DNA of 32,620 nucleotides from positions 1 to 32,620 of the forward strand of contig VGZG01000036.1 of assembly GCA_016872675.1 (NCBI GenBank), in the 5' to 3' direction. The notes under the pieces are model-generated. The model did not search any database and was not told the DNA's origin. It saw only the letters and a program-made list of their open reading frames with translations. Shown here piece after piece: positions 6,720 to 32,620 of this stretch (position 1 is the stretch's first letter; the number at the start of each line of letters is the position of its first letter). Source of the stretch: Planctomycetota bacterium. Its GTDB lineage: Bacteria; Planctomycetota; UBA1135; UBA2386. A program made the translations under genes and the position numbers.

Positions 6720-7808
6720 TCACCGGCGGGCGGGCAGGGTCGCTGGCGCAGGGGTCGGGGTCGGCGCGCCGGTACGGTCGCGCACGAGCCGCCACAGGCT
6801 CTCGCGTGCCTCGACCTCGCTGCGCGGCGCGACCCAGCTCGGGCCGCAGTCGTCTTCGATGCGGAAGGCGCCACCGGCGCGCAGCAGCGCGAGGTTGCCA
6901 GCGGCGACGTCGTCGCTGCCGACGATGATGAATAGCTTCGGGAAGATGTCCGGCCGCTGCACGGTCAGCTGCTGCAGCACGTCGATTTCCTCGCCGCGTT
7001 CGAGATGCACCGGCGCGATGGTGCGCGAGACGGACGCGAGGCGGTTGCTGCGCAGGGCAGGCGCGACGAGCGACTGCACGCCCTGTAGGTCGCGGCGGCC
7101 GCGGCGGCTCTCGCCGAGCATGCGCACGGCGAAGCGCAGATCGGGCTCGACGTCGCTCTCGGTGAACAGCAGGCGCTTACGGTCGCGCAGGTCGAGCAGC
7201 AGCTCGCCGAGCGCGAGCACTTCGTCGGCGTTCTCGAGCACTATCGGCACGGCGCGGTTGTCGCCGCCGTCGACGCGGCGCATCGCCGACGCTGCGGCGT
7301 CGTAGCGCTGGTCGAGTTGGCGCGCGGCCTCGCGCGCGACGAGGTGGAAGCCGAGCGGTTGCGTCGCTGCCAACAGCGCTGGTTGGACCTCGGGCGCCGC
7401 TTCCTGGTGCAGGTTGCTCGCACGCACCGCCGTCGCGGCGGCGAGATCCGCCGGCTGCGGCGCTGAGCCCGGCATCAGCCAAGACGCGCAGAGGATCGCC
7501 GCGGCGGCTGCCGCCGCGCCGGTGACGGTGTAGCGCACCTTGGTCAGCGTCGGCACCGGCTCGCGGAACACCGCCTCCGGCGTGCCCTCGCCCGATTCGA
7601 TGCGCGCAAACAGCATCTCGCGGAAGTCGGCCCCGACGCGCGGCTGCTGCAGCCGCAGCGTCAGCTGCTGCGCCTTCTGCAGGTCGGCCCAGAAGCGGCC
7701 ACAATCATCGCATTCCTCGGCGTGCCGGAGGACGATCGTGCGCCGGCTCGGCGCCAGCCGGCCGTCGAGGCACTGCGACAGGTCGAAGCGGAAGGTGTTG
7801 CAGTTCAT
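6720..7808 (-). CDS. Zinc-finger (ZAS/zf-HC2) transmembrane anti-sigma factor
   Basis: The N-terminus carries the ZAS motif H29-x3-C33-x2-C36, with an earlier Cys3. In this family the motif binds zinc and holds an ECF sigma factor. A single hydrophobic segment at about residues 90-112 would cross the cytoplasmic membrane. It is followed by an extracytoplasmic domain of about 240 residues that I do not recognise and a Pro/Thr-rich tail. The start is 10 nt after the stop of the ECF sigma gene. This is the usual cognate arrangement, in which the anti-sigma protein sequesters its sigma factor until an envelope signal triggers release. At 362 residues it is longer than many anti-sigma factors because of its large sensor domain. 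Function is assigned from motif and context; the signal is unknown. Confidence 0.85.
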   Translation of the reverse strand: MNCNTFRFDLSQCLDGRLAPSRRTIVLRHAEECDDCGRFWADLQKAQQLTLRLQQPRVGADFREMLFARIESGEGTPEAVFREPVPTLTKVRYTVTGAAAAAAAILCASWLMPGSAPQPADLAAATAVRASNLHQEAAPEVQPALLAATQPLGFHLVAREAARQLDQRYDAAASAMRRVDGGDNRAVPIVLENADEVLALGELLLDLRDRKRLLFTESDVEPDLRFAVRMLGESRRGRRDLQGVQSLVAPALRSNRLASVSRTIAPVHLERGEEIDVLQQLTVQRPDIFPKLFIIVGSDDVAAGNLALLRAGGAFRIEDDCGPSWVAPRSEVEARESLWRLVRDRTGAPTPTPAPATLPARR

Positions 7809-7818
7809 CGGTGCAGAC

Positions 7819-8382
7819 TCAGACCTTGATTAGTCGGCTGACGAGTGACTGGAAGCGCGCGCGGGCGCGGAACAGGCGGGTCGAAATGGTCTTGACGGGG
7901 CAGCCCATGACGGCGGCCGCGTCTTCGTAGCTGAGGCCTTCGATCTCGCAGAGCAGGAAGGCCTCGCGGAACTTGAGTGGCAGCTGCTCGATGGCCTGCT
8001 CGATCGCGGCGTTGGCCTCGCGCGTTTCGGCGATCTCGTCCGGCCGGTTGCCGTCGCGGTCGACCGGCGTGAATGGCGTCTCGTCGTCGTCGCGCTGTAG
8101 GTCGCGAAACAGGCTGAGCTTGAACTTGCGGCGGCGCAGTTGGTCGAGGCAGAGGTTGCGCGCGACGCGGAACAGCCAGGGCCGGTAGGCGGCGGCGGGC
8201 ACCTGGTTGAGGTGCCGGTACAACGCCAGGAAGGCATCCTGGGCGACGTCCTCGGCGGCGATGCTGTCGCCGAGCAGGCGCGTGGCGTAGGCATTGAGGC
8301 TGTCGGCGTGCTCGGCCAGCGCGCGATGGTAGGCCACCATCGTCACTGGGTCGGGCTGGTATTCGGTGTTCGCCTTGGCCAT
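7819..8382 (-). CDS. ECF-type RNA polymerase sigma factor
   Basis: The 187-residue length is normal for the extracytoplasmic-function group. Sigma region 2 spans about residues 22-88, with the conserved 'A-E-D-V-A-Q-D-A-F-L-A-L-Y' helix (43-55) and 'P-W-L-F-R-V-A-R-N-L-C-L-D' (68-80). Region 4 spans about 127-183, with 'L-P-L-K-F-R-E-A-F-L-L' and the helix-turn-helix 'G-L-S-Y-E-D-A-A-A-V-M-G-C-P-V-K-T-I-S-T-R' (149-169) for -35 recognition. There is no region 3, as expected. The start lacks a Shine-Dalgarno site. The anti-sigma gene follows by 10 nt. Such pairs usually autoregulate from the upstream promoter, which here lies in the divergent spacer 8383-8547. Confidence 0.92.
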   Translation of the reverse strand: MAKANTEYQPDPVTMVAYHRALAEHADSLNAYATRLLGDSIAAEDVAQDAFLALYRHLNQVPAAAYRPWLFRVARNLCLDQLRRRKFKLSLFRDLQRDDDETPFTPVDRDGNRPDEIAETREANAAIEQAIEQLPLKFREAFLLCEIEGLSYEDAAAVMGCPVKTISTRLFRARARFQSLVSRLIKV

Positions 8383-16281: not shown

Positions 16282-17424
16282 TCACTCGAACTTCGCCTGC
16301 CGCGCCATGCGCTTGCGGATGATGTCGATGCGCTCCATCTGGCCGCGCGCCGGGAAGCGCTCGTAGAAGCCTTCGCGCCGGAACTCGTGCGTCATCTCGG
16401 CGATCGCCTTGAAGCGCGCCTCCAACAGCTTGACGAGGTCGGCGCCCGGCATGACCGCGGCGTCGATGCGCGCGGCGACGTCGCCGCACAGGCGCAGCAT
16501 CGCCTCGATGGCCACGTCGCGCGTGACCATGAAGTTCTTGTTGTCGCCCCACGCCGTGGCGAACGTCGTGCGCAGCGCCTTGAGCACGTCGCGGATCAGG
16601 CCATAGCCGCGGTCCTTGCTCCAGCCGCGGCCGTCCTTGAAGCGGTGCTGCGCGTCCTTGCGGCCGATCAGGCGCAGGACCTCGCCGAAGATCTGCGCCT
16701 GATTGATCCACATCTCCTGGTGGCTGCGGCCGCCGAGCATGTTGATGTGGTACTGCAGCGGGCTGTCGCCCTCCTCGTAGCAGGCGCGCACGAGCGACGC
16801 GGCGTACTTCTTCTCCGGGTCGGTGCCCCACTCGATGCGCTCGTAGAGGTCGATCAGGTGCGAGCGGTTGATGCGCGTGTGCGTGCTGTTGATCACGACG
16901 AACATCTCCGTCGCGAAGTCGCTCGTCTTGCCGTCGAAGATCACGACCGGCACGTCGATGCGGCGGTCGGCATCCTTCTCCTGCAGGTAGAAGTGCAGGC
17001 CGGCGAGGCGGTGCTGGCCGTCGATGATCAGGAAGTCGCTGCGCGGCTCGATCAGGTTGCCGGCGCGCTCCATGCCCTTCAGCGGCTGGAACTCGAGCTT
17101 CTCCGGGGTGAACAGCAGCACCGCGCCGGGGATCACCGGCTGGCGCGACTCGTTGCGGTAGAAGTCTTTGATCTGGCGAATCTTGCGTCGGTTCAGCTCG
17201 CGCTGGAACGACTTGCTGTTCTTCTCGATCGCCTGCACGTAGCGCTCGACCTCGTCGGGCTCGCTGGTCTTTCCTTTCTGCTCGCTGAGCGCATCGCCAC
17301 CGATCACCTGGCCGCGTTCGCCGTAGAAGCGCGTGACGAACCGCACCTTGCGCAGCAGATCCTCGGCGGGATAGCTGACGAAGTAGAACTCCGACTCCTT
17401 CTGGCGCATGCGCTGGGCAAACAC
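16282..17424 (-). CDS. Stand-alone DGQHR-domain protein (DndB-related)
   Basis: The GTG at 17424 is chosen because AGGAG lies 8 nt upstream; an ATG five codons later would leave that site too far away. The 380-residue protein carries the family signature D135-G-Q-H-R139 followed by 'L-A-G-L-H-F', preceded by 'F-L-I-I'. Further motifs are 'V-P-V-V-I-F-D' and 'E-M-F-V-V-I-N-S-T-H-T-R-I-N-R-S-H-L' (173-190). The DGQHR family includes DndB-type proteins linked to DNA phosphorothioation, but many members stand alone with unknown function. No dnd, restriction or toxin gene is adjacent here; its neighbours are the low-GC islet and the folate gene. A DNA-related or defence function is possible but unproven. 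GC3 is like the host genome. Confidence 0.85.
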   Translation of the reverse strand: MFAQRMRQKESEFYFVSYPAEDLLRKVRFVTRFYGERGQVIGGDALSEQKGKTSEPDEVERYVQAIEKNSKSFQRELNRRKIRQIKDFYRNESRQPVIPGAVLLFTPEKLEFQPLKGMERAGNLIEPRSDFLIIDGQHRLAGLHFYLQEKDADRRIDVPVVIFDGKTSDFATEMFVVINSTHTRINRSHLIDLYERIEWGTDPEKKYAASLVRACYEEGDSPLQYHINMLGGRSHQEMWINQAQIFGEVLRLIGRKDAQHRFKDGRGWSKDRGYGLIRDVLKALRTTFATAWGDNKNFMVTRDVAIEAMLRLCGDVAARIDAAVMPGADLVKLLEARFKAIAEMTHEFRREGFYERFPARGQMERIDIIRKRMARQAKFE

Positions 17425-26962: not shown

Positions 26963-28627
26963 TCACACCGGCGGCAGGTCCAGCCGGTTGGCCGCTGCGA
27001 GGTCGTCGGCGCTGCCGATGTCGAGCCAGCGGCCGTCGAGCCGCGTGGCGGCGAGCCGCATGCGCGTCGACAGCCAGGCGAGCAGGTGGCCCGGCGCGTC
27101 GGGGTTGCCGCCGCCGTCCAGGTAGGCGCGCACGAGTTCGGGCAGCGCGCGCGGCAGCAGGTACACGGCGATCGCCGACAGGTTGCCCTGCGGGTCCGGC
27201 GGCTTCTCGCGGAAGCGCGCGACCTTGTCGCCATCGAGCTGCACTTCGCTGTACTTGCCCGGCGGCACGGGCTGCGGCACCTCGCGCACGACCAGCTGGC
27301 CGTCGCCGGTCGCGCCAAAGCGTGCGACGAGCCGGCCGAGGTCGAACTCGAAGAGGTTGTCGCACGCGAGCACGAGGTAGCCGTCGGGCGCGTCGGTCGC
27401 CGGCTGCTTGCCGAGGGCGAGCGCGAGGTCGCGCACGGCGCCGAGCCGCGTCTCGTTGCTGGTGGCGCCGTCGTCGACGACCTGCAGCGGCAGGCGCGCG
27501 CCGCAGCGCTGCGCCCACGCGGCGAAGTCCGCGTGGAAGCGGCCGTTGCTGACCACGACGCCGCGCTCGACGCCGCCGGCCGCTTCGACCTGCCGCAGGA
27601 TGCGCGTCAGCAGCGGTTGGCCGCCGACCTCGAGCAGCGGCTTCGCCCGGTGCAGCGTCAGCGGGTAGAGCCGCGTCGCGAAGCCGGCGGCGAGGAACAC
27701 CGCGCACAGCCGCGGCGTCGGCGGCGCGACCGTCGGCCGCAGCGTCGAGTGGTGGTGCTTCCTGCACGCGGCCTCGACGGCGTCGCGCTGCGCCTCGTCG
27801 CGGCAGGCGAACAGCACGGCTCCGCCCGAACCGGGCAGCTTCGCCGCCGCGCCGAGCCCGCGGCCGAGCTGCGCGAGCTCGCGGTCGGCAGGCGCGATGG
27901 TGAACACCTGCGCGCGCAGGTCGAGGTTGCGGTCGACGCACGCCAGGAAGCCCGCGCGGTCGCCGGCCAGCAGCGCCTCGCGGCCGCGTTCGGCGTTGTG
28001 CGCGAGGTCGTGCATCGTCGCGCGCACGGCGCGATCGCCGGCCTGGAAGCGCGCCCACACCGGCGCGTGCACGTCGCCCGAGCTCTGGCTCGGCACGCCG
28101 TGCCACGCCAGCAGCAGCGGCGGCAGCAGCGCAGGATCGAGCCGCTGCACCGCGCCCTCGGCGAACGGCTGCGCGAAGTCCATCGCCAACAACCCGCCGT
28201 GCGCCTGCACGAGCCGGTCGAGCGCGCCCGCGCGGATGCCGAGCGTCTCGTTCTCGGCGCGCCAGGCGAGTTCGGCGATCCGGGATGGCGTCAGCGGCAG
28301 TCCGTGCCAGCGCGACCACGCGCGCAGTGCGGCGACCAGCAGGGCGCTCGATCCCGACAGCCCCGCCTGGAACGGGATGTCGCTCGCGCACGACGCGACG
28401 AACGGCCGCGCCGCTGCGTCGATGCCGTGCTGCGCCAGCGTGCGTCGCCACTGCGTCCAGCCGGCGGCCAGCAGTTCGTTGGGCAGCGCGATCGCCGGCG
28501 CGTCCGCCAACGTCACCGTCGCGCGCAGCTCGGCGACCGCGAAGCCCAGGCCCTTGCCGCCGTAGAGGTCGGACGGGTTGCCGAGCAGGCCGACGCGCGC
28601 GTGCGCGTGGGACGAGAGGGTCGCCAT
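26963..28627 (-). CDS. Fused GHMP sugar kinase (glucuronokinase-like) and sugar nucleotidyltransferase
   Basis: The 554-residue protein joins two enzymes. Residues 1-300 are a GHMP kinase: 'A-R-V-G-L-L-G-N-P-S-D-L-Y' (10-22), the ATP loop 'G-L-S-G-S-S-A' (89-95) and the third motif 'K-L-P-G-S-G-G-A-V' (263-271). The first two motifs closely resemble plant glucuronokinase, which makes glucuronate 1-phosphate. Residues 308-554 are a nucleotidyltransferase with 'L-A-A-G-F-A-T-R-L-Y-P-L-T' and 'A-K-P-L-L' (K329). The protein could therefore turn a free sugar into its 1-phosphate and then an NDP-sugar. That is the same logic as the bacterial fucose enzyme Fkp but with the domain order reversed. 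The actual sugar is not known. It starts 47 nt from a divergent transporter-like gene. Confidence 0.88.
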   Translation of the reverse strand: MATLSSHAHARVGLLGNPSDLYGGKGLGFAVAELRATVTLADAPAIALPNELLAAGWTQWRRTLAQHGIDAAARPFVASCASDIPFQAGLSGSSALLVAALRAWSRWHGLPLTPSRIAELAWRAENETLGIRAGALDRLVQAHGGLLAMDFAQPFAEGAVQRLDPALLPPLLLAWHGVPSQSSGDVHAPVWARFQAGDRAVRATMHDLAHNAERGREALLAGDRAGFLACVDRNLDLRAQVFTIAPADRELAQLGRGLGAAAKLPGSGGAVLFACRDEAQRDAVEAACRKHHHSTLRPTVAPPTPRLCAVFLAAGFATRLYPLTLHRAKPLLEVGGQPLLTRILRQVEAAGGVERGVVVSNGRFHADFAAWAQRCGARLPLQVVDDGATSNETRLGAVRDLALALGKQPATDAPDGYLVLACDNLFEFDLGRLVARFGATGDGQLVVREVPQPVPPGKYSEVQLDGDKVARFREKPPDPQGNLSAIAVYLLPRALPELVRAYLDGGGNPDAPGHLLAWLSTRMRLAATRLDGRWLDIGSADDLAAANRLDLPPV

Positions 28628-28674: not shown

Positions 28675-30099
28675 ATGACGTCCGCTCCGCACCGTCCCGA
28701 CGCGCGCAGCCTGCCGATGGTGCGCCCGGTCGACGAAGCGCGCCTCGCCGCCGACCGCGCGTGGCTGGCCGAGACCGCGCAACTGCCGTGGGCCGCGCGC
28801 CAGCTGCGGTACCTGCGCCGCGGCGGTCCTGGCTACCTGCAGAGCGCTTTGACGCTCGGCGGCGGCACCGCGTCGGCCTGCCTGCTGTCGGGCGCGGCCT
28901 TCGGCTACCAGCTGCTGTGGGTCGCGCCGCTGGCGATGGTGCTCGGCGGCGTGGTCTTTGCCGCGATCGCGCACCAGACGCTGTCGACCGGCATGCGGCC
29001 GTTCGATGCGATGCGCACGTACGCGGGGCCGGTCACGGCGTGGGGCTGGGCGATCGGCACCGTGCTGGCTTCGTGCGTCTGGCACTTCGCGCAGTACTCG
29101 CTCGCATCGGCCGTGCTCGTCGACCTCGGCGCCGTCGCCGGCGTCGAACTGCCGCGCTTCGGCATGGGCCTGGTGGTGCTCGCGTGGGCGGTGCCGACGG
29201 CGTTCAGCTTCGGCGCCGCCGGCGCGATGCAGCGCGCGTTCGACCGCGTCATGCGCTGGATGGTGTGGGCGATCGTGCTGTTGTTCGCCGTCGTCGCCGT
29301 GCGCCTTGGCGTCGCCGACCCCGCCGCCGTCGCCGCGGGCTTCGTGCCGAGCCTCCCGGCCGACCGCGCCGTTCCGAACGGCGAGCCCATCGCGGCGCTG
29401 CCGATCCTGATCGCCGGCCTCGCCACGGCAGTCGGCGTCAACATGACGTTCCTCTACCCGTACTCGCTGCTCGCGCGCGGCTGGGGTCGCGAACACCGCG
29501 AACTCGCGCGCGCCGACATCGCGTTCGGCATGGTGATCCCGTACGTCGTCGCCACGACGCTGATGGTCGTCGTCGCCGCCGGCACGATGCACCAGGGCTT
29601 CACCGGCAAGGACTGCGGTCCGCTCGACGCCGCCGCGACGCTCGGCGGCCTGCTCGGCCCGGTGTGGGGCCGCGTGCTGTTCGACCTCGGCCTGCTCGGC
29701 ATGCTGCTGACGACGATCACCATGCACATGGTGTGCTCGGGACTCGCGTGCGCCGAGATGTTCGGCCTGCGCGCCGGCTCCGTCGGCTACCGCGTCGCCA
29801 CGCTGCTGCCGACTCCCGGCGTGCTCGGCAGCCTGTTCTGGTCGCAGCTCAAGCTGTGGCTCAACGTGCCGACCAGCATCATCGCCGGCTGCATGCTGCC
29901 GCTCGCGTACGTCGGCTTCTTCAAGCTGCAGACCAGCAAGGCGTATCTCGGCGCCGATCGGCCGACCGGCTGGAAGGCGGCCGTGTGGCTCGCGCTGATG
30001 GGGCTCGCGACCGCGGTGCTGGTGGTGTTCCTGGCGATGTATCTGATGGACGAGGCGCCGAAGTTCTTGGCGCAGGTGCGGGCGGCGATGGGCTGGTGA
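28675..30099 (+). CDS. Nramp-family-like transporter without canonical metal motifs
   Basis: The ATG at 28675 is used; the upstream frame is antisense to the fused kinase gene. The 474-residue protein has about eleven hydrophobic helices and the overall layout of the Nramp (LeuT-fold) family. The first helix reads 'G-P-G-Y-L-Q-S-A-L-T-L-G-G-G-T-A-S' where metal-transporting members have D-P-G-N. The sixth reads 'N-M-T-F-L-Y-P-Y-S-L-L-A-R-G-W-G' where classical members have M-P-H. Loss of both metal-binding segments suggests a different substrate or an Nramp-related subgroup. The cytoplasmic N-terminus (about 45 residues) is hydrophilic. It is divergent from the fused sugar kinase; the two may share a control region of 47 nt. 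Family membership is likely; substrate unknown. Confidence 0.78.
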   Translation: MTSAPHRPDARSLPMVRPVDEARLAADRAWLAETAQLPWAARQLRYLRRGGPGYLQSALTLGGGTASACLLSGAAFGYQLLWVAPLAMVLGGVVFAAIAHQTLSTGMRPFDAMRTYAGPVTAWGWAIGTVLASCVWHFAQYSLASAVLVDLGAVAGVELPRFGMGLVVLAWAVPTAFSFGAAGAMQRAFDRVMRWMVWAIVLLFAVVAVRLGVADPAAVAAGFVPSLPADRAVPNGEPIAALPILIAGLATAVGVNMTFLYPYSLLARGWGREHRELARADIAFGMVIPYVVATTLMVVVAAGTMHQGFTGKDCGPLDAAATLGGLLGPVWGRVLFDLGLLGMLLTTITMHMVCSGLACAEMFGLRAGSVGYRVATLLPTPGVLGSLFWSQLKLWLNVPTSIIAGCMLPLAYVGFFKLQTSKAYLGADRPTGWKAAVWLALMGLATAVLVVFLAMYLMDEAPKFLAQVRAAMGW

Positions 30100-30179: not shown

Positions 30180-31208
30180 TCACACCGCCGCCAACTCCCA
30201 GATCTCGACCTTCTCGCGCGTCCGTCGCCGCAGCGGCTTCACGCGCCGCGTCATCTTCTCCACCAGCCGGAAGCGCCCGCGCTCCAGCTCGGTCGTGATC
30301 GGATGCGGCACGTCGGGCTGCGACAGCTCGATGATGTTGGAGAACACGAACACCACGCGGCCGCCGGGCGCGAGCCGCTGCAGGCACTGCGCGTAGAAGC
30401 GCTCGAAGAAGCCGTCCTGGAAGTACATCGCCAGGTCGAGCGTGCGGCCGACTTCGCCCTTCATCCACGGCGGGTTGGACACGATGAGGTCGATGGGGCC
30501 GCGGTCCGCGCCGAGCAGGTCGGCGTGCTGCAGTTCGATCGGCGGCGGCTGGGGCAGGCGCCGCAGCTGCCGCGCGACGCTCTCGATCGCGTTGGGGTTG
30601 ATGTCGGTCGCGAGCACGTGCTGGAAGCCCGCCTTCGCCATCTGCAGCGCCAGCACGCCACTGCCGGTGCCGACGTCGATCGCGCGGCGGCGGGCGCCCT
30701 GGTACTTGGCGAGCCACGTGCCGAACAGCTCCAGGTGTTCCATGCGCGCCGGGATGTACGCGCCGTAGAACGGGTGCACGCGGTAGCCGAGCACGGGGAA
30801 GTGCACGCCCTTGTCGTACCAGTCCCACGCGCTGCTCAGCACGCGCGCGTCCTCGACGGGCAGCGCGAAGTCGGCGTGGTCGGGGTACAGCTCGGCGAGG
30901 AAACCCGGGCGCGGCGCGTCGGGCAGCGCAACCTTGCGGCCGACGACGGGCACGAGCAGGCGCTGCGACGCGGCGGCAAACGCTTCGCGGAAGGCGCGCT
31001 TCTTGACGTAGCCGCCGTCTTCGCCCGGATCGTCGAGCAGCAGGCGCAGTGCGGCGAGGATGCCGAGCCCGGTGCCGAAGCGATCGGCGACGAGCAGCGA
31101 ACGCCCGTCGCGCAGCCACGCCGCGGCTTGTGCGGGCGGGGTGGTCTCGTCGACGGGTTGCGCGCGGTGGCGCAGGACGGGCTCGGGGCGGTGCAGGGCA
31201 GCGGACAT
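30180..31208 (-). CDS. Class I SAM-dependent methyltransferase (small-domain MTase type)
   Basis: The ATG at 31208 is preferred over a longer frame because the extra 30 residues are Pro/Arg-rich and unlike the rest. The 342-residue product has an N-terminal domain of about 165 residues, then the SAM-binding motif I 'A-I-D-V-G-T-G-S-G-V-L-A' (176-187), the acidic end of beta-2 'A-T-D-I-N-P-N-A-I' (200-208) and the catalytic 'S-N-P-P-W' (244-248). NPPW/NPPY motifs occur in enzymes that methylate exocyclic or amide nitrogens, such as HemK/PrmC and RsmC types. It is therefore probably an RNA, DNA or protein amino-group methyltransferase; the target is unresolved. It converges on the transporter gene with an 80-nt gap that shows no clear terminator. 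Confidence 0.88.
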   Translation of the reverse strand: MSAALHRPEPVLRHRAQPVDETTPPAQAAAWLRDGRSLLVADRFGTGLGILAALRLLLDDPGEDGGYVKKRAFREAFAAASQRLLVPVVGRKVALPDAPRPGFLAELYPDHADFALPVEDARVLSSAWDWYDKGVHFPVLGYRVHPFYGAYIPARMEHLELFGTWLAKYQGARRRAIDVGTGSGVLALQMAKAGFQHVLATDINPNAIESVARQLRRLPQPPPIELQHADLLGADRGPIDLIVSNPPWMKGEVGRTLDLAMYFQDGFFERFYAQCLQRLAPGGRVVFVFSNIIELSQPDVPHPITTELERGRFRLVEKMTRRVKPLRRRTREKVEIWELAAV

Positions 31209-31456
31209 CAGGCGGATGCGGGCGGGCGCGGGGCAGGCGCGGCGCGGAGGTGTGATACCTCGCGCGCGGGCTGGCGGCACGCGCGCTTCGGCGTGCATCT
31301 CGCCGCCGGTGGCGCCGCCGCCTGGCGTCGCCGCCGTCGCCGGGCGGGCGTCACGCCCGTTCGCTACTTCGCCCTGCCGCCGCCTCGCCCGTAGCGCCGT
31401 CGGTCCCTTCGGCTACCGTGCTAGCGCCGCGCGCGGCCGCGGCCCCTCGCCCCGTG

Positions 31457-32620
31457 ATGCAACGCTCCCTCAAGGTCGTCCTGTTCGGCACCGGCTTTCT
31501 CGCGCGCACGCGCGCCCGCTGTTGGAAGCGTGTGCACGGCGCGCAGGTGGCCGTCGTCGTCGCCGCGCGCGATCGCGCGAAGGCCGCGGCGTTTGCGCAG
31601 CAGCACGGCCTGCACGGCGCGTGCACCATCGACGAAGCGCTCGCCGATCCTTCCGTCGACCTCGTGGACCTGTGCGTGCCCAACCGCGCGCACCGCGAAC
31701 TCGCCGAACGCGCGTTCGCCGCCGGCAAGCACGTGCTGTGCACCAAGCCGCTGACCGCGTACTGGGGCCAGGGCCTGCCCGCCGATGCCAGCGCCGCCGC
31801 CGTCGCCGCCGTGCCGCGCGCGCAGATGCTCGCCGCCGCCGTCGCCGACGCCGAGGCGATGGTCGCCGCCGCCGCGCGCGCCGGTCGCCGGCTCTTCTAC
31901 GGCGAGAACTGGCTGCACGCGCCCGCCATCCGCCGCGCCATGCAACTCGCCGCCGCGTCGAGTGGGGTCGTGCTGGAGATGCGCGGCTGGGAGAGCCACT
32001 CGGGGTCGCATTCGCCGTACGCCAAGGACTGGCGCGCGACCGGCGGCGGGGCGCTGCTGCGCCTGGGCGCGCATCCCATCGGCGCCATGCTGTGGTGGAA
32101 GCGCCACGAAGGCCTGCGCCTGCGCGGCCAGCCCACGCGCTGCATCGCCGTGACCGCCGAGGTCGCCGACACCACCGCCGCCGTGCGCGCGACCCGCGCG
32201 CAGTGCGATGTCGTGAGCGGCTGGGAACACGTCGAGAACTGGGGCAGCTGCGTGCTGCACTTCGACGACGGCTCGCGCGGTGTCGCGTACGGCGCGGACA
32301 CGTACCTCGGTGGCATGCAGAGCCATCTCAGCGTGCTCGGCAGCACGTTCCGGTTCGAGTGCGCGTTGTCGCCGGTGGATGCGCTGCGCGCGTACGCGGT
32401 GCGGGATGGCGCGTTTGGTGGCGAGTACGTGATGGAGAAGGTGAGCGGGCAGGCCGGGTGGTCGACGCCGATTCCGGATGAGGATGAGGTGTCCGGGCAG
32501 CAGGGGTTGGTGCAGGCGGTGGCGGGGGAGGTGGTAGGAGGTGGAGGTGGTGAGGGTGGTGGCTGCGGAGATGGCGGGTTGGGGCTGGAGGTGGTGAGGG
32601 TGGTGTATGCGGGGTATGTG
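31457..32620 (+). CDS. Gfo/Idh/MocA-family oxidoreductase, 3' partial
   Basis: The frame starts at ATG 31457 (a GTG one codon earlier is possible) and remains open for 388 codons to the window edge. Residues 5-20 form the NAD(P)-binding Rossmann loop 'V-V-L-F-G-T-G-F-L-A'. Residues 68-100 contain 'V-D-L-V-D-L-C-V-P-N-R-A-H' and 'G-K-H-V-L-C-T-K-P-L', the family's 'E-K-P' helix with Cys-Thr in place of Glu. 'G-G-G-A-L-L-R-L-G-A-H-P-I' (about 196-208) marks the substrate half. Members oxidise or reduce sugars and related polyols. Near the visible end, about residues 358-375 become a Gly/Glu stretch of unusual composition before 'L-G-L-E-V-V-R-V-V-Y-A-G-Y', which is the expected C-terminal helix of the family. 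Confidence 0.9.
   Translation, partial: MQRSLKVVLFGTGFLARTRARCWKRVHGAQVAVVVAARDRAKAAAFAQQHGLHGACTIDEALADPSVDLVDLCVPNRAHRELAERAFAAGKHVLCTKPLTAYWGQGLPADASAAAVAAVPRAQMLAAAVADAEAMVAAAARAGRRLFYGENWLHAPAIRRAMQLAAASSGVVLEMRGWESHSGSHSPYAKDWRATGGGALLRLGAHPIGAMLWWKRHEGLRLRGQPTRCIAVTAEVADTTAAVRATRAQCDVVSGWEHVENWGSCVLHFDDGSRGVAYGADTYLGGMQSHLSVLGSTFRFECALSPVDALRAYAVRDGAFGGEYVMEKVSGQAGWSTPIPDEDEVSGQQGLVQAVAGEVVGGGGGEGGGCGDGGLGLEVVRVVYAGYV

Follow-up and report, generated by a model that had tools for sequence, protein, structure and literature searches.

A GHMP sugar kinase and a nucleotidyltransferase are fused in a single protein encoded on a contig of a Planctomycetota draft genome. We think it reasonably probable that this protein is a bifunctional uronate salvage enzyme, which would convert glucuronate to glucuronate-1-phosphate and then to UDP-glucuronate. 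Plants and lower animals are known to salvage glucuronate to UDP-glucuronate. Bacterial versions of the route appear to be undescribed, and no publication on the bacterial members was found in the open-access literature searched. What is new here is a known pair of activities in a new architecture, in a new domain of life and with new partner genes.

In the proposed mechanism the N-terminal GHMP domain would use ATP to phosphorylate the anomeric C1 hydroxyl of a free uronic acid, D-glucuronate being the likeliest. The C-terminal domain would then join the sugar-1-phosphate to a nucleotide, for which UTP is the likeliest donor, yielding UDP-glucuronate and pyrophosphate. A neighbouring Gfo/Idh/MocA oxidoreductase would either feed in the free sugar or further oxidise the product. 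Since most relatives make the two halves as two coupled proteins, the two domains probably work one after the other, with no strict channelling between them.

The fusion gene and its protein

The stretch of DNA analysed (the window) is the whole fusion-gene contig of 32,620 bases. The host genome is a 3.58-Mb draft of 182 contigs with a completeness of 95%. The fusion gene (26963-28627, minus strand) encodes 554 aa from an ATG start, and the G+C content at its three codon positions (0.79/0.53/0.96) has the pattern of a coding frame. Pfam matches, motifs and an AF2 model define the N-terminal sugar-1-kinase domain (residues 1-304; 27716..28627, minus strand), a member of glucuronokinase subfamily A. 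Pfam, motifs and a structural match define the nucleotidyltransferase domain (residues 305-554 plus the stop codon; 26963..27715, minus strand). GHMP_kinases_N (2.2e-13, residues 74-145 of the fusion protein), GHMP_kinases_C (8.9e-6, residues 217-291) and NTP_transferase (2.7e-21, residues 309-549) all scored above their gathering scores. The initial annotation, which started from the kinase motifs LLGNPSD and GLSGSSA, had proposed a kinase fused to an NDP-sugar pyrophosphorylase-type domain. Both motifs are present, at residues 14-20 and 89-95, and the fusion was borne out by Pfam, by the single frame and by its recurrence in relatives.

A search of the host genome revealed one fusion-type gene; three further matches were weak and partial. 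The fusion protein had no match in PADLOC, and a role in a defence system was dropped for that reason. Elsewhere in the window a gene on the minus strand (16282-17424) encodes a DndB/DpdB-like protein (Pfam DndB 1.3e-12, PADLOC DpdB 7.8e-15), with no obvious defence cluster among the frames examined around it.

Structure prediction, one of the checks proposed for both halves, was carried out on the whole fusion protein with AF2 from 34 aligned rows, 15 of them fused, 9 kinase and 10 nucleotidyltransferase. The result was a confident model of two domains (mean pLDDT 94.0, pTM 0.87). Residues 1-303 match GHMP sugar kinases with Z of approximately 32-33 and rmsd of approximately 2.2 over 284-297 residues, the top matches being the WcbL heptokinase (Z 32.9) and galactokinases, tied within 1. 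Residues 305-553 best match UDP-glucose pyrophosphorylase 8b31 (Z 27.3, rmsd 2.3, 236 residues). A fold held in common with known sugar enzymes is no guide to substrate.

Placement of the kinase half

Scanning a single genome for each species yielded 178 kinase relatives. The best 80 of the 178 were retained as loci and scored with profiles built in this analysis, which assigned 55 to subfamily A and 25 to subfamily B. Among 392 Planctomycetota genomes 44 had a kinase match at E<=1e-15, and those read fall into the same two subfamilies. The window kinase is in subfamily A. Subfamily B, the plant-type one, has hosts in Armatimonadota, Planctomycetota, Actinomycetota and Pseudomonadota and on a Bacteroidota plasmid; L120, L133 and L140 are among its loci. 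A viral-contig scan for plant-type kinases returned a single locus, L192, an IMG/VR contig filed as viral that carries a subfamily B-like kinase 36% identical to L048.

The motif GNP[SG]D occurs in 79/80 of the family rows (best 80 of 178), the sole miss being the truncated L122, and S19 is replaced by G in six subfamily A rows. GNPSD was found in 0/21 other-GHMP loci, including the HddA-like ones; these loci had been collected by HddA and mevalonate-kinase profiles or were GHMP genes of the host's own genome. Throughout the family the motifs GNPSD, GLSGSSA, DR (137-138) and GSGG are invariant or nearly so. The plant enzyme was represented by a sequence that we take to be Arabidopsis glucuronokinase 1 (GLCAK1). 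Because it is 47-50% identical to the bacterial L133, L120 and L140, this presumed sequence appears to be sound. R11, GNPSD, Y22, E125, D137, R138, H187, N234, R238 and GSGG, as well as G24 and G266-G269, are common to this plant row and nearly all A and B rows. R11, H187 and R238 are candidates for the residues that hold the substrate carboxylate. Position 86 is less constant, with arginine in 23/25 B rows and 26/55 A rows and phenylalanine in 16 A rows and the window. Because of this phenylalanine, kinase specificity may have shifted. The spacing between the first two motifs is also shorter in many subfamily A members than in B.

The presumed Arabidopsis sequence aligns with the window kinase over its full length (326 aligned positions, 31% identity, E 5.5e-39), and its identity with B rows reaches 50% over 332 positions. 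The HddA-like, galactokinase-like and other GHMP rows tested all gave E >= 0.003 against it, and the HddA-like rows matched in short pieces only. Phylogeny rested on one quick tree and one finished 40-row tree, with the cut-off rows L105 and L122 left out of the 87-row set. In both trees the Arabidopsis row lies inside subfamily B beside Armatimonadota rows, and the window lies in subfamily A next to B and the plant row, with weak deep support (57/75) and long outgroup branches. The arrangement looks as if a glucuronokinase gene had been exchanged between plants and bacteria. By these comparisons the window kinase is a member of a sister subfamily of the plant-type glucuronokinase and not the plant-type enzyme itself. 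The initial annotation was thus right to call the motifs glucuronokinase-like, and went too far in assigning them to the plant enzyme; the kinase phylogeny that it proposed places the window beside subfamily B and the plant row and leaves the deep root weak.

That weak root bears on another identity for the protein, in which the kinase half is an HddA-type heptose-phosphate kinase and the whole an HddA-HddC-like GDP-heptose enzyme. HddA and HddC are a GHMP kinase and a small nucleotidyltransferase of one pathway, encoded by separate genes. An AU test did not reject a clade of subfamily A plus HddA-like rows (p 0.448). When the kinase half was compared by sequence with solved structures, heptose kinases came out best, and in the structural comparison WcbL stands in the leading group. 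However, no solved glucuronokinase is present among these matches, and the nearest PDB match is therefore not diagnostic. The window kinase scored 47 bits with NCBIfam HddA (NF049969), far under the cut-off of 600, HddA-like loci lack GNPSD, and their similarity to the presumed plant enzyme is confined to the short pieces noted above. We consider the heptose reading improbable. The NCBIfam mevalonate kinase models gave 39 of 403 and 32 of 163 bits and the galactokinase model 39 of 443 bits. Among the matches listed no NCBIfam equivalog reached its cut-off, the nearest being HddA, galactokinase and mevalonate kinase, and membership in these three groups was rejected on scores so far under the cut-offs. 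Placement with heptose or mevalonate kinases had been named at the outset as evidence against a glucuronokinase; the full-length similarity is instead to glucuronokinase-type sequences, not to heptose, mevalonate or galactokinases.

The nucleotidyltransferase half and known enzymes

The nucleotidyltransferase half carries the motifs AAGFATR, AKPLL, CDNLFEFD, REKP and WLDIGS. In 12 homologues from several phyla A10, G11, T14, R15, K25, P26, D119, N120, E170, K171, P172, D232, I233 and G234 (A4 numbering) are invariant. Loss of catalytic residues, a further point on which the first reading was to be judged, was not seen, the signature residues being kept in both halves. A profile comparison puts GDP-mannose and dTDP/UDP-glucose pyrophosphorylases closest among solved structures. 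Judging from structural and family kinship, UTP is most likely the donor. The nearest plasmid-borne matches are mostly haloarchaeal NDP-sugar synthases, among them those of Natrinema pellirubrum, Natronorubrum bangense and Halopiger xanaduensis (31-34% identity). These three species appear in a published tree of the zebrafish DrUP group (PMC3938481). The likeness, which is one of species name and not of DrUP sequence, suggests that the window nucleotidyltransferase may belong to the DrUP group.

The closest known enzyme is zebrafish DrGKUP. In the work of Gangl et al. 2014 (PMC3938481), glucuronate was the only substrate that DrGKUP phosphorylated (Km 31 uM), and UDP-glucuronate was formed only in traces, after 70 h; the DrUP domain was nearly inactive with glucuronate-1-phosphate and UTP, and the role of the domain is left unsettled there. 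DrGKUP and its Xenopus counterpart XtGKUP resemble the window protein in joining a glucuronokinase-type GHMP kinase and a short bacterial-type nucleotidyltransferase in one chain, and in the glucuronate to UDP-glucuronate salvage proposed for them (PMC3938481). They differ in domain order, as the nucleotidyltransferase is N-terminal in the fish protein and C-terminal in the window protein. Bacteria and archaea, according to the same paper, have only the nucleotidyltransferase, as a stand-alone protein (PMC3938481). The bacterial pair described here, unlike DrGKUP, is usually an operon, has been fused at least twice independently and is accompanied by Gfo/Idh/MocA and Nramp-like genes. The window protein is a separate fusion with another architecture. 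The enzyme type, which had been introduced as best known from plants and algae, is not confined there, as DrGKUP shows (PMC3938481).

Other comparisons are more distant. Plant glucuronokinase (EC 2.7.1.43, Arabidopsis GLCAK1) has the same family and, by the presumed Arabidopsis sequence, the same invariant residues; it is a single kinase that works with a separate UDP-sugar pyrophosphorylase, and the window kinase belongs to its sister subfamily. Fkp/FKGP (L-fucokinase/GDP-fucose pyrophosphorylase) also has a kinase and a pyrophosphorylase in one chain and serves sugar salvage. The initial annotation contrasted the window protein with Fkp. The opposite order stands, the Fkp kinase aligning at residues 582-948 of a protein of approximately 950 aa; the profile similarity of the kinases is distant (E 4e-4 to 6.5e-5), and the nearest known architecture is that of DrGKUP, not that of Fkp.

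The near inactivity of DrUP in vitro (PMC3938481) raised the question of whether one half of the window protein is inactive, for example a kinase joined to a regulatory domain of nucleotidyltransferase fold. The active-site motifs are nevertheless invariant in the 12 homologues of several phyla, and a separate nucleotidyltransferase gene is kept beside the kinase in relatives. An inactive half is thus very improbable.

Fusion history, partner genes and substrate

In the window's family 13/34 genomes have a kinase match at E<=1e-15, and 12/13 of these have one frame long enough for both halves. In an independent genome collection both domains are in one frame in 15 loci (best 80 of 178 relatives). 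Chance or faulty assembly as the origin of the fusion was ruled out by the presence of the same fusion in many genomes. Besides the 15 loci with the cognate nucleotidyltransferase in the same frame, 30 more have it directly behind the kinase, which amounts to 45/55 subfamily A loci. Inspection of 15 split junctions showed an ATGA or GTGA overlap in 10 (L087, L088, L091, L093, L094, L095, L096, L118, L130 and L131). Such an overlap is the usual sign of coupled translation, and fusion is therefore a short step from the overlapping junctions.

In the 40-row tree, the five members sampled from the main fused clade form one group (100/91). The split Pla86 locus (L087) is sister to the sampled fused clade in this tree (99/97) and lies inside the clade in the quick tree. 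The fused L109 pairs with the split L096 (100/97). The AU test rejected a single common clade of all fused genes (p 9.3e-5), and the history calls for two changes of state. On these trees the fusion arose at least twice. Planctomycetes bacterium Pla86 has a complete genome, in which the split pair overlaps as ATGA and is adjoined by Nramp-like and Gfo genes. With the split version on a complete chromosome, it is a possible experimental host. The record of L082 is headed Candidatus Kuenenia stuttgartiensis; its fused gene sits deep within the fused clade, and the label or bin may be wrong.

No cognate nucleotidyltransferase adjoins the kinase in 10/55 A loci (L089, L090, L105, L110, L117, L123, L127, L135, L150 and L153). 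The sequence ends within 150 bases of the kinase in L105 and L153, and the other eight are real exceptions. L089 and L090 have kept the Nramp-like and Gfo neighbours. L110, L123, L127, L135 and L150 are A-type kinases of Actinomycetota; SDR genes (L110, L127, L150) and thiolase-like genes (L110, L123, L127) recur near them.

Upstream of the fusion gene, and divergent from it, is a gene for an Nramp-like (PF01566) membrane transporter (28675..30099, plus strand; Pfam Nramp 1.9e-20). A methyltransferase-like gene (30180-31298, minus strand) separates it from a Gfo/Idh/MocA oxidoreductase gene (31457..32620, plus strand; PF01408 GFO_IDH_MocA 1.8e-20), which is cut by the contig end. This last gene had already been pointed out as a nearby gene that may act on sugars, and it turned out to be a conserved partner. 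Homologues 48-72% identical to it lie near the kinase in 35/55 A loci, all 35 being among the 40 Planctomycetota A loci, which were assigned by record title or, for L079 and L092 with titles lacking a phylum, by the tree. The five Planctomycetota loci without it are L074, L086, L093, L122 and L153; the contig breaks off to one side of the kinase in L074 and L122 and close behind the kinase in L153. No such homologue was found near the kinase in the 15 A loci with titles that name other phyla, so the partner is a Planctomycetota trait. None was found near the kinase in 25 B loci at the threshold used; one B locus, L148, has a distant 28% match.

Nramp-like homologues lie within 8 kb of the kinase in 13/55 A loci and 0/25 B loci. 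Canonical Nramp proteins have the motifs DPGN and MPH. The window transporter reads GGGT at the DPGN position and lacks MPH, and to judge from these motifs its cargo may be other than metal ions. Near B-type kinases, a GalU-like nucleotidyltransferase was found in 9/25 loci; on a Rufibacter tibetensis plasmid (L194) the gene behind a B-type kinase is annotated as galU. Sulfatase-like genes, named from sequence, lie near the kinase in 7 loci. Because such genes are abundant in these bacteria, they were not counted as linked.

A strong match to PF05153, myo-inositol oxygenase, was found in genome G031 (locus L095), 124 bases from the kinase and divergent from the kinase-nucleotidyltransferase pair (L095 7160-7954). 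L093, the sister row of L095, has a homologue at the same place (7159-7953), and no other of the 80 loci (best 80 of 178) has one beside the kinase. The gene is rare in the phylum, with strong PF05153 matches (E<1e-90) in 12/392 Planctomycetota genomes. Since the product of myo-inositol oxygenase is glucuronate, its position supports glucuronate as the kinase substrate in the L093/L095 lineage. The two species are closely related and therefore represent one evolutionary case. No match was found in the window's genome or in the other fused genomes tested. On the evidence of the family and of this adjoining gene, glucuronate is most likely the substrate. UDP-sugar dehydrogenase-family genes are present in the window's genome, and a uronate route may therefore be redundant there.

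The Gfo/Idh/MocA partner counts against our best reading, because a plain UDP-glucuronate route needs no such enzyme. A model of the L077 homologue (pLDDT 82.0) is nearest to KanD2, GenD2, levoglucosan dehydrogenase and inositol dehydrogenase (Z 35.7 to approximately 33). To judge from the entry titles, these enzymes presumably have free or glycosidic sugars and inositols as substrates. The fusion protein could thus perform the same chemistry on another sugar, such as galacturonate, a 3-keto or otherwise oxidised sugar from the Gfo/Idh/MocA partner, or an aldose, and form an NDP-sugar other than UDP-glucuronate. The presence of the partner in 35/40 Planctomycetota A loci and the change from R to F at kinase position 86 in the fused clade are consistent with this. 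Because DrUP is nearly inactive with glucuronate-1-phosphate and UTP (PMC3938481), the true product may likewise be another NDP-sugar. The residues that remain invariant through subfamily B and the presumed plant glucuronokinase, however, argue for glucuronate, as does the myo-inositol oxygenase beside the kinase in L093 and L095. We regard another sugar as possible but doubtful, and salvage of glucuronate to UDP-glucuronate as the better account.

A wider proposal, which is decidedly speculative and unlikely to hold in full, is that these genes form a whole bacterial uronate-activation system. A glucuronokinase-family kinase would be coupled or fused to a DrUP-type nucleotidyltransferase and served by a dedicated Gfo/Idh/MocA enzyme. 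An Nramp-like carrier without metal-binding motifs would import the organic substrate, myo-inositol oxygenase would feed the system in some lineages, and the product would be a modified, for example 3-oxidised, NDP-uronate. If real, such a bacterial system would be where the plant and animal routes of glucuronate salvage came from, and it would explain the apparent inactivity of the animal nucleotidyltransferase on plain glucuronate-1-phosphate. With its place among Armatimonadota rows, the presumed Arabidopsis sequence hints that the plant enzyme has a bacterial background. The bacterial family, which is coupled and repeatedly fused and is linked to an oxidoreductase and, in a single lineage, also to myo-inositol oxygenase, offers tractable proteins for settling substrate and product.
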